DNA of 32,841 bases. Origin: Acidobacteriota bacterium. Its GTDB lineage: Bacteria > Acidobacteriota > Terriglobia > Terriglobales > Acidobacteriaceae. This document shows positions 9,503-12,377 of the stretch, piece after piece (within the stretch, counting starts at the first letter, position 1; every line of letters starts with the position of its first letter). The notes beneath the pieces are model-generated. The model made no database searches. It saw nothing but the letters and a program-made list of their open reading frames with translations, and was not told the DNA's origin. Both the position numbers and the translations under genes were made by a program. The DNA lies in assembly GCA_003225465.1 (NCBI GenBank), contig QIAH01000396.1, forward strand, positions 1-32,841, given 5' to 3'.

Positions 9503-10450
9503 TTACGCCCGCAACGTGTTCCAGGATTTGTCCCGCATCTCGGCCAACATCGCCGGCTCGATATTTCCGCCGCTGATCACGGCGACGTGAATCGTCCGAG
9601 CAGGCAATTCCTTTCCGTGAAACAAAAATCCGGCCACTGCCACCGCGCCGCTGGGTTCGGCGATCGTCTTGGGATTGGCCGCCAAACGCCGCATCGCTTC
9701 CCGGATCTCCTCCTCCGACACGGTCACAATGTCATCCACGAAATTCCGAATGTGCTCGAAATTGATGGGCCCGATGCTCTGCGTGCGCAGACCGTCTGCC
9801 ATCGTCTGCGTCACTTCCTCGGCGGGAAGATTTACGATTTGTCCGGCGCGAAAGCTGGCCTGCGCGTCCGCCGCCAGCGCCGGCTCGACTCCGATCACCG
9901 TCACCGAAGGTCTGCTGAGCTTCACCGCGGCTGCAACGCCGCTGATCATCCCCCCTCCACCCACGGGAACGAGCACAGTCTCCACCCCAGGCACGTCCTC
10001 CAGAATCTCCAATCCCATCGTGCCCTGTCCCGCGATGATTTTCTCGTCGTTGTACGGAGGAACGATCATGTATCCATGCTGGGCCGCCAATTCTTCCGCC
10101 TTCCGTTGCCGTTCGGTGCTCCCTGGACCGACTTTCACGATCTCCGCGCCCAAGCCCGCGGTGGCCTCAAGTTTGATCGCGGGAGCATTCTCTGGCATGA
10201 CGATGACCGCTTTGGTATGCAGCGCGCGGGCGGCATAAGCTACGCCCTGCGCGTGGTTCCCGCTGGAATACGCAATCACTCCCCGCGCCCGCTCTTCCGC
10301 CGAGAGAGAAGCAATTTTGTTGTACGCGCCCCGCAGCTTGAACGCGCCGATGGGCTGGAGGTTTTCGAGCTTTAAGAAAAGGCGCCGACCGTCGTTCGAC
10401 CCCACTCCGTCTGCCGCGATCACCGGTGTCCGCACCGTAACGCCACGCAA
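9503..10450 (-). CDS. ilvA: Threonine/serine dehydratase, PLP-dependent
   Basis: A fold-type II PLP enzyme that deaminates threonine to 2-oxobutanoate (or serine to pyruvate). The catalytic lysine is in GAFKLRGA (K38 here). The substrate loop SSGNHAQG and the phosphate-binding loop GGGGMISG are present, as is the C-terminal ISGGN. There is no C-terminal ACT-like regulatory domain, so it is closer to the catabolic TdcB or serine racemase type than to classical feedback-inhibited IlvA; the symbol is approximate. The TTG at 10450 is the first conventional start but cuts off the usual N-terminal helix. In frame upstream is VTLEDIQQAQARLRG, preceded by ATC at 10489-10487 and AGGAG 8 nt before that. 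The natural start is probably that ATC (328 aa). An in-frame stop lies at 10517-10519. Confidence 0.9.
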   Translation of the reverse strand: MRGVTVRTPVIAADGVGSNDGRRLFLKLENLQPIGAFKLRGAYNKIASLSAEERARGVIAYSSGNHAQGVAYAARALHTKAVIVMPENAPAIKLEATAGLGAEIVKVGPGSTERQRKAEELAAQHGYMIVPPYNDEKIIAGQGTMGLEILEDVPGVETVLVPVGGGGMISGVAAAVKLSRPSVTVIGVEPALAADAQASFRAGQIVNLPAEEVTQTMADGLRTQSIGPINFEHIRNFVDDIVTVSEEEIREAMRRLAANPKTIAEPSGAVAVAGFLFHGKELPARTIHVAVISGGNIEPAMLAEMRDKSWNTLRA

Positions 10451-10505
10451 ACGAGCCTGCGCTTGTTGAATATCTTCCAGAGTGACGATGGCAGATGCTC
10501 CTGAT

Positions 10506-10596
10506 TGAGCTACGAGCTACGAGCTGCGAGCTGCGAGCTATGAGCTATGAGCTCCGAGCGACGAGCTCCAGTTTCGAGTTTCAAGGTTCGAGTAAG
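10506..10596. repeat. Heptad array, 13 words (TGAGCTA/CGAGCTA to GAGTTTC)
   Basis: Thirteen contiguous 7-nt words. The first nine vary on CGAGCTA (often in identical pairs), and the last four drift to CAGTTTC, GAGTTTC, AAGGTTC and GAGTAAG while keeping register. It starts 4 nt from the AGGAG of the ilvA-like gene, so it would lie in that gene's 5' leader. Inverted partner at 10667-10715. Confidence 0.9.
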
Positions 10597-10666
10597 AAAG
10601 TAGCATCCACATCTCGCCTTCGATCCTCATTCTAAGAACAAAAGCTACGGCCTCCGATGCTATCTC

Positions 10667-10715
10667 GTAGCTCGTAGCTCGAAGCTCGAAGCTCGTAGCT
10701 CGCAGCTCAAAGCTA
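10667..10715. repeat. Heptad array overlapping the rnj stop codon
   Basis: Seven words: GTAGCTC twice, GAAGCTC twice, GTAGCTC, GCAGCTC, AAAGCTA. The last word contains the RNase J stop codon (10713-10715). It is the inverted partner of 10506-10596. Inside the 70-nt spacer a further inverted pair TAGCATC (10601) and GATGCTA (10656) extends the symmetry. Confidence 0.92.
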
Positions 10716-12377
10716 AATCTCCAGAATCACCGGCATAATCAGCGGCCGTTTCTGGGTCTGCTTATTGATGAAGCGCTTCAAATCGGCGCGGATTTTTTCC
10801 TTGATCACGCCATAATCCGCCTTTTCTTCCTCGCTCGAGGCGTCGAGCGTCTGGATCACGATCTGCTTCGCCTCTTCCATCAGTCCGTCTTCGCCGGGAT
10901 TGAACCCGCGCGTCACGATTTCCGGCGACGTTTCCACCACGCCCGTCAGCTTGTTGATCGCGATGATGGGCAGCACAATCCCGTCCTCGCTGATGTGTCG
11001 CCGATCTTTAATGATCAGGTCCTCGACCACGTCGGTGCGCGAGCCGGAATCAATGCACACCCGGCCCACATTAACGCGGCCCACTTTCCGCGCTCCGAGT
11101 TCGTCGAATTCCAGAATGTCGCCGCTTTCGATCAGCATGACCTGGCCCACCGAGCCGTGCATCGAAGCAGCCATCTCCGCATGCAGCTTGAGCTGCCGGT
11201 ATTCCCCGTGCACCGGAATGAAGTAGCGCGGCTTCACCAGGTTGATGATGAGCTTTAACTCTTCCTGGCTGGCGTGTCCGCTCACGTGCACTGGCGGCGA
11301 CGACCCATCTTCGTAAATCACGTGTGCCTCGCGCCGGAACAGGTGATCGATCATCCGGTAAATCGCCTTTTCGTTCCCAGGGATAATGCGCGACGACAGG
11401 ACGACCGTGTCGCCCTTCTCAATTTTCGCGTGCTTATGATTGTCAACCGCCGACCGCGACAACGCTGACATAGGCTCGCCCTGCGTCCCGCTGATCAGCA
11501 CGCACACCTTCTGCGGCGGAAAGTTCTTCATTTCTCCCGGATGGATCAGGAGCCCCTCGGGAATCTCGATATAGCCCAGGTCCTCGGCAATTTCGGCCGA
11601 GTTGTTCATGGAGCGCCCGATGAAGGCAATCTTGCGTCCATGTTCGAACGCTAGATCGACCGTGAGCTTGATGCGATGAATCGAAGACGAAAAACACGAA
11701 ATAAACAGCCGCCGCTCGGTGCGCGCAAACACTTCATCGAACTTGCGCCGCACCGCCCGCTCGCTGGGTGTGTATCCCTTGCGCTCGACGTTGGTGGAAT
11801 CCTGCAGCAACGCCAGCACACCTTCCTTGCCGTATTCCGCAAAGGCATGCAAGTCAAACAGGCGGTTGTCGGTGGGCGTCGGATCGACTTTGAAATCGCC
11901 CGTGTGCACCACCACGCCCAAAGGCGTATGAATCGCCAGCGCCACGCAATCCACCAGGCTATGCGTTACCTGGATGGGATGAATCGTGAACGGCCCAATC
12001 TTGATGCGCTCTGCGGGCCGAATCTCCCGCAGATCAGCCTCGTCGAGCAGGCCGTGCTCATCCAGTTTGTCCTCCACGTAGGCGAGCGTGAACTCCGTGC
12101 CCCATACCGGGACATTCAGTTCCGACAAAATCCAGGGCAGGGCGCCAATGTGGTCCTCGTGCCCATGTGTCAGCACAATCCCGCGCACGCGTTGGCGGTT
12201 TTCAATGAGATAAGAAATATCGGGAACAACAATATCGACACCCAGCAGTTCGGCCTCGGGAAACATCAGGCCGGCATCGATAACGATAATGTCATCGCCC
12301 CAGCGCAGGGCCATGCAGTTCATGCCGAACTCGCCCAGCCCGCCCAGGGGCACAATTTGCAATTTTCCGGATGGCAT
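10713..12377 (-). CDS. rnj: Ribonuclease J
   Basis: A metallo-beta-lactamase/beta-CASP RNase with 5'-to-3' exonuclease and endonuclease activity in mRNA decay and rRNA processing. At 554 aa it has the usual length. The metal site THGHEDHIG (residues 70-78) is intact, the beta-CASP region follows (FIGRSMNNSAEIAEDLGYI), and GHASQEEL with the C-terminal domain is also present. The ATG at 12377 gives the expected short N-terminus before LGGLGEFGMN. The region divergent to ecsC (12378-12696) must hold its promoter. A structured 3' region built of inverted heptads follows the stop at once, of interest because RNase J acts on structured RNA ends. Confidence 0.96.
   Translation of the reverse strand: MPSGKLQIVPLGGLGEFGMNCMALRWGDDIIVIDAGLMFPEAELLGVDIVVPDISYLIENRQRVRGIVLTHGHEDHIGALPWILSELNVPVWGTEFTLAYVEDKLDEHGLLDEADLREIRPAERIKIGPFTIHPIQVTHSLVDCVALAIHTPLGVVVHTGDFKVDPTPTDNRLFDLHAFAEYGKEGVLALLQDSTNVERKGYTPSERAVRRKFDEVFARTERRLFISCFSSSIHRIKLTVDLAFEHGRKIAFIGRSMNNSAEIAEDLGYIEIPEGLLIHPGEMKNFPPQKVCVLISGTQGEPMSALSRSAVDNHKHAKIEKGDTVVLSSRIIPGNEKAIYRMIDHLFRREAHVIYEDGSSPPVHVSGHASQEELKLIINLVKPRYFIPVHGEYRQLKLHAEMAASMHGSVGQVMLIESGDILEFDELGARKVGRVNVGRVCIDSGSRTDVVEDLIIKDRRHISEDGIVLPIIAINKLTGVVETSPEIVTRGFNPGEDGLMEEAKQIVIQTLDASSEEEKADYGVIKEKIRADLKRFINKQTQKRPLIMPVILEI

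Follow-up and report, generated by a model that had tools for sequence, protein, structure and literature searches.

Where does translation begin in a gene whose reading frame offers none of the usual initiation codons at the point at which its protein appears to start? The gene in question lies on the minus strand (9503..10489) of a 32,841-nt stretch of Acidobacteriota DNA, the whole of which is called the window below. Counted from an ATC codon, it encodes a 328-aa fold-type II PLP enzyme of the threonine/serine dehydratase type (Pfam PALP, 3.7e-83). Its best NCBIfam match is threo-3-hydroxy-L-aspartate ammonia-lyase (9.3e-99), but its 330.6 bits fall short of the cut-off of 452; no equivalog (threo-3-hydroxyaspartate ammonia-lyase, TdcB or IlvA) can be assigned, each of the best 25 of 37 NCBIfam matches lying below its curated cut-off, so that the assignment stays at the level of the threonine/serine dehydratase group. 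The closest solved chain is that of the catabolic threonine dehydratase 2gn0 (1.3e-69), and the PALP domain contains an FKLRGA motif, the lysine of which we take to be the PLP-binding, catalytic lysine. Further relatives of the enzyme are encoded in the same genome, the nearest being 43% identical.

The start region in the window

Read directly on the minus strand, the region runs in the order CAATC-AGGAG-CATCTGCC-ATC-GTC-ACT-CTG. A Shine-Dalgarno motif, AGGAG (10502-10498), is followed by an 8-nt spacer (10497-10490) and by the putative initiation codon ATC (10489-10487), after which the frame reads VTLEDIQQAQARLRG. The frame is closed upstream by an in-frame TAG (10519-10517), with no ATG, GTG or TTG between this stop and the ATC; the first usual start codon in the dehydratase frame is a TTG further downstream (10450-10448). 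The earlier note had described this arrangement, with an ATC at the Met position 8 nt after AGGAG and an in-frame stop at 10517 that leaves no ATG, GTG or TTG, and re-reading of the sequence found its coordinates, and the N-terminus VTLEDIQQAQARLRG that it read upstream of the TTG, to be correct. Its statement that a start at TTG 10450 loses the N-terminal part also holds, in that the conserved first 13 codons would be removed. The combination AGGAG-N(5-9)-ATH is, however, not rare, with 17 occurrences in the window where 9.3 are expected; the case made by this one sequence is therefore suggestive only, and it is the comparison of orthologues that settles it.

Orthologues and the position of initiation

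Orthologues were collected from relatives, from genomes of the family (340 of 398 matched) and from a public genome collection, in which the named close records among the matches are Acidobacteriota. With 100 fetched stretches added, these searches gave 213 loci. Removed from these were 40 duplicates, 7 loci whose 5' end was cut or aligned poorly, and 13 others that are paralogues or distant homologues; the remaining 153 distinct orthologues come mostly from the best-scoring of the 340 matching genomes and are not a random sample. ATG stands at the position of the ATC in 84 of the 153, which confirms the codon position and answers the check for ATG in orthologues that the earlier note had suggested. 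ATC is found in 40, ATT in 3 and ATA in 2, giving 45/153 with an AUH codon (ATC, ATT or ATA); GTG (3) and TTG (5) together account for 8/153, and the others have CTC (7), CTG (7), GTC (1) or ACG (1). The preference for ATC among the AUH starts is partly the codon preference of Ile, though it exceeds it (40/45, compared with 698/1090 internal Ile codons; p 1.7e-4 for the excess). Of two close orthologues, L172 and L179 (branch length about 0.035 each), one has TTG and the other ATC, and in L179 a CTG directly precedes the ATC.

An ATC at this codon could have arisen through an assembly error, the genome being a draft in 590 contigs, or in a gene undergoing decay. AUH recurs, however, at the same codon in 45 distinct orthologues, including that of an independently assembled genome of the same genus (L009/L030, 85% protein identity), which likewise has ATC, with GGAG 7 nt upstream; and the dehydratase reading frame is intact, against what decay would predict. 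Either origin is exceedingly improbable.

The frames upstream of the AUH codons point in the same direction. After the upstream stop, 31 of the 45 AUH genes, termed strict below, contain no in-frame ATG, GTG or TTG, and 14 contain some. In two of the latter, L141 and L212, the AUH codon lacks a Shine-Dalgarno motif and is preceded by an in-frame ATG at a distance of 2 and 7 codons, respectively, so that translation probably starts at that ATG; in the 12 others the upstream canonical codon is 3 to 64 codons away. Where the position is occupied by CTC, CTG, GTC or ACG, a canonical start lies upstream in 15 of 16 genes (Fisher p 1.6e-5 against the AUH genes). These sequence counts show the codon to be confined to AUN or a usual start and freed when an upstream start is available, with one exception, L127. 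In this locus, which is unexplained, the start position is occupied by ACG, and the 30 nt up to the upstream stop contain no canonical start in frame.

Nucleotide conservation among the 31 strict genes sets in sharply at the same point. Pairwise identity over the 24 nt upstream is mostly near chance, save for a bump at the Shine-Dalgarno motif, then reaches 1.0/1.0/0.71 over the three positions of the start codon and is protein-like beyond it, with 0.73/0.73/0.35 at the first, second and third positions of codons 2-13. These values bear on the most obvious alternative, namely that translation starts at the downstream TTG 10450 and leaves the N-terminal stretch VTLEDIQQAQAR untranslated. The TTG is the first codon of its kind in the frame and would be the choice of gene finders limited to ATG, GTG and TTG, yet codons 2-13 evolve as protein, with a third-position identity of 0.35 against 0.73, and the 84 orthologues with ATG at the AUC position likewise speak for a start upstream of it. 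In addition, five of the strict AUH genes (L099, L121, L057, L148 and L154) also lack any canonical codon between the AUH codon and the catalytic lysine; their open frames span 316-326 aa. Initiation at the TTG is accordingly very improbable and, on the comparison of orthologous sequences, both it and a sequencing error can be regarded as excluded. A gene finder restricted to the three usual codons would place the 31 strict starts inside the protein, five of them past the catalytic lysine, so that these dehydratases look truncated or dead; databases probably record them with a wrong N-terminus.

Initiation at some other unusual site has hardly more to recommend it. A CTG (10480) occupies codon 4 in the window, and a CTG is found there in 10 of the 45 AUH genes, but in the remaining 35 this codon varies (CTC, CTA, CTT or others), and the distance of CTG 10480 from the Shine-Dalgarno motif is 17 nt. 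An out-of-frame start followed by frameshifting would call for an out-of-frame ATG nearby, and one occurs between -30 and +2 in only 5 of the 31 strict genes. Both variants seem very remote.

The AUH codon is, by these sequence comparisons, shown to be coupled with a Shine-Dalgarno motif across orthologues. When the motif is defined as at least 4 nt at a spacing of 4-12, it precedes 41/45 AUH genes vs 7/84 ATG genes (Fisher p 1e-21), and the median duplex energies are -7.4 and -2.6, respectively. Relatedness was taken into account with an IQ-TREE quick tree, on which, of 11 independent pairs, a mean of 6.6 join Shine-Dalgarno and AUH and 0.0 oppose them (median p 0.016); with FastTree the pairing reaches only p 0.0625.

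The AUC start proposed in the earlier note is thus supported by AUH codons in 45 of 153 orthologues, 31 of them with no upstream in-frame canonical start, by the sharp onset of conservation and by the Shine-Dalgarno motif in 41 of the 45. With high confidence, translation of the threonine/serine dehydratase can be assigned to AUC 10489-10487.

Gene specificity, infC and the upstream neighborhood

AUC initiation in these bacteria probably extends to infC. Of 27 infC loci located by tblastn in these Acidobacteriota genomes, that of the genome of the window included, 26 begin with ATC preceded by GGAGG; the count covers L214-L240 and leaves out the partial loci L241 and L242. The infC loci of this family share a conserved IDKR N-terminus. 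The one miss is L218, counted as TCG; its alignment begins at residue 3 and an ATC is present a few codons further upstream, but the locus was left as a miss. On this count, initiation at AUC is most likely a settled practice in this Acidobacteriota family.

Beyond this, a scan of 1.22 Mb, drawn from five related genomes and the window and comprising 864 predicted genes, found no excess of AUH starts: a Shine-Dalgarno motif preceded 3/51 candidate AUH codons, compared with 58/965 for other codons. Two of the three AUH matches are the dehydratase itself, in the window and in genome G044. The third, on contig 4 of G072, is probably false, as the true start seems to be an ATG 20 codons downstream; from that ATG the gene presumably encodes a short antitoxin-like protein. 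As infC lay outside the scanned stretches or at their cut edges, the only internal positives were the dehydratase genes of the window and G044, both of which the scan picked up with a Shine-Dalgarno setting of 4 nt, but only that of the window with the 5-nt settings. The absence of an AUH excess in the 864 genes indicates that the AUH start is gene-specific, and a general looseness of initiation in these genomes is ruled out by the same 1.22-Mb scan.

The gene upstream, 223 nt from the dehydratase, is rnj, encoding RNase J (10713..12377, minus strand; TIGR00649, 560 bits against a cut-off of 400). Among genes with at least 600 nt of upstream sequence, rnj ends within 600 nt upstream of 33/44 AUH genes, as compared with 18/80 ATG genes, but this association fails a tree-aware test, with 3.6 pairs for and 2.1 against. 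Between rnj and the Shine-Dalgarno motif lies a long inverted repeat with GAGCTWC-type heptamers (10505..10710), the 47-nt arms of which are 89% complementary; the RNA fold of 10450-10720 has a z of -5.2. A related 18-mer pattern (up to 2 mismatches) has 180 matches in the same genome vs 16 for a reversed control, which identifies the intergenic element as a dispersed repeat.

The ATG-type genes may in part be initiated in a different manner. A TANNNT element 5-16 nt upstream of the start, scored at 4 or more of 6 positions, is found in 23/84 ATG genes and 2/45 AUH genes (p 0.002); under the stricter requirement of at least 5 positions the counts are 9/84 and 1/45 (p 0.16). These counts hint at leaderless transcripts in some ATG-type orthologues. 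Leaderless genes average 13.3% in three Acidobacteria (PMC3160421, Table 2), and leaderless initiation generally prefers AUG (PMC5622118; PMC9031893). A division into AUH starts led by a Shine-Dalgarno motif and partly leaderless AUG starts is a plausible picture, which we in part infer.

Evolutionary lability and possible control by IF3

At the AUC start, the initiator fMet-tRNA would presumably decode AUC with a third-position mismatch, and the strong Shine-Dalgarno motif 8 nt upstream would anchor initiation and compensate for the poor codon. A start of this kind may keep synthesis of the enzyme low and may render the dehydratase sensitive to the level of IF3, as infC is. Over the family, the same codon switches repeatedly between AUH with a Shine-Dalgarno motif, mostly behind rnj, and AUG, mostly without one; in some AUG-type species the start may lie close behind a possible -10 element, which would make the AUG type partly leaderless. 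The AUH label changes, in one direction or the other, 27 times with FastTree and 28 times (26-28) on the IQ-TREE quick tree, and well-supported branches force at least 11-13 of these changes.

The dehydratase may be compared with several known cases. The infC gene, which is autoregulated by IF3, begins with ATT in E. coli and with ATC in Streptomyces (PMC5472188). Like the dehydratase, infC combines an AUH start with a strong Shine-Dalgarno motif; it differs in that it is fixed as ATC in these Acidobacteriota and encodes IF3 itself, whereas the start of the dehydratase is labile and the enzyme has no obvious feedback. AUH starts outside infC are reported in S. aureus for ccpN (AUA), cvfC1 (AUU) and citZ (AUA), two of which are metabolic; infC, cvfC1 and ccpN carry extended Shine-Dalgarno motifs, and the AUH starts give about 10% of the expression of AUG versions in poor medium (PMC13009471). 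The S. aureus cases concern different genes in a different phylum and were shown by start mapping and reporters; repeated switching between AUG and AUH, a feature of the dehydratase, is not described for them in the part of the paper available (PMC13009471). Streptomyces sigR resembles the dehydratase in that an unusual start behind a strong Shine-Dalgarno motif is misannotated by gene finders, but the codon is GTC or GTT, not AUH, the gene encodes a regulator, and the effect of IF3, which represses sigR through the GTC start, is experimental (PMC5472188). In Borrelia burgdorferi, pncA (BBE22) is likewise a metabolic enzyme truncated in databases, its true start being AUU; it is a single spirochaete case, backed by biochemistry and a crystal structure (PMC13398362).

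The literature searched, which included few subscription papers, holds only a small number of conserved AUH starts in genes other than infC, and neither an AUH start in a threonine dehydratase nor AUH starts in Acidobacteria were found in it. E. coli pcnB, an RNA-processing gene, likewise has an AUU start. As far as comparison of sequences can tell, the dehydratase joins the genes with a conserved AUH start, of which infC is the type; its breadth, its gene specificity and its repeated AUG/AUH switching are what set it apart.

Whether the AUH start serves a function is a separate matter. The chief rival to regulation accepts the same start codon as the best explanation and competes only over the inferred function: the AUH start would be real but the product of compensated drift, in which AUG turns into AUH at genes where a strong Shine-Dalgarno motif already secures sufficient initiation for a weakly needed enzyme, and no IF3-linked regulation is involved. 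Drift is favored by the many AUG/AUH switches in the dehydratase (27 or 28, depending on the tree), set against an infC start kept as ATC in all but one of 27 loci, and by the tendency of GUG and UUG starts to be compensated by Shine-Dalgarno motifs (PMC5622118). Drift should, however, affect many genes, yet the 864 genes scanned show no excess of AUH starts (3/51 vs 58/965); and an ancestral reconstruction recorded only 1 change to AUU among 61,358 ancestral AUG starts (PMC5622118). Since the start of the dehydratase is labile and that of infC fixed, drift is a rival of about equal weight, with an even chance of being correct; lability fits it as well as it fits regulation. Selection for IF3-sensitive throttling of the dehydratase has somewhat less than an even chance, and IF3 control is made more plausible, by analogy, by the ATC start of infC in the same family.

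A broader scheme may be put forward tentatively. The dehydratase and infC could form a small IF3-sensitive set that would make the breakdown of amino acids depend on the level of the initiation machinery or on its fidelity, and different lineages would have moved the gene repeatedly between a Shine-Dalgarno-led AUH mode behind rnj and a partly leaderless AUG mode lacking the motif, the two responding differently to IF3. The many natural AUG/AUH switches across this family of soil bacteria provide a ready comparison of the costs and benefits of an AUH start, and the dehydratase offers a simple test of whether control by IF3 extends beyond infC to metabolism.
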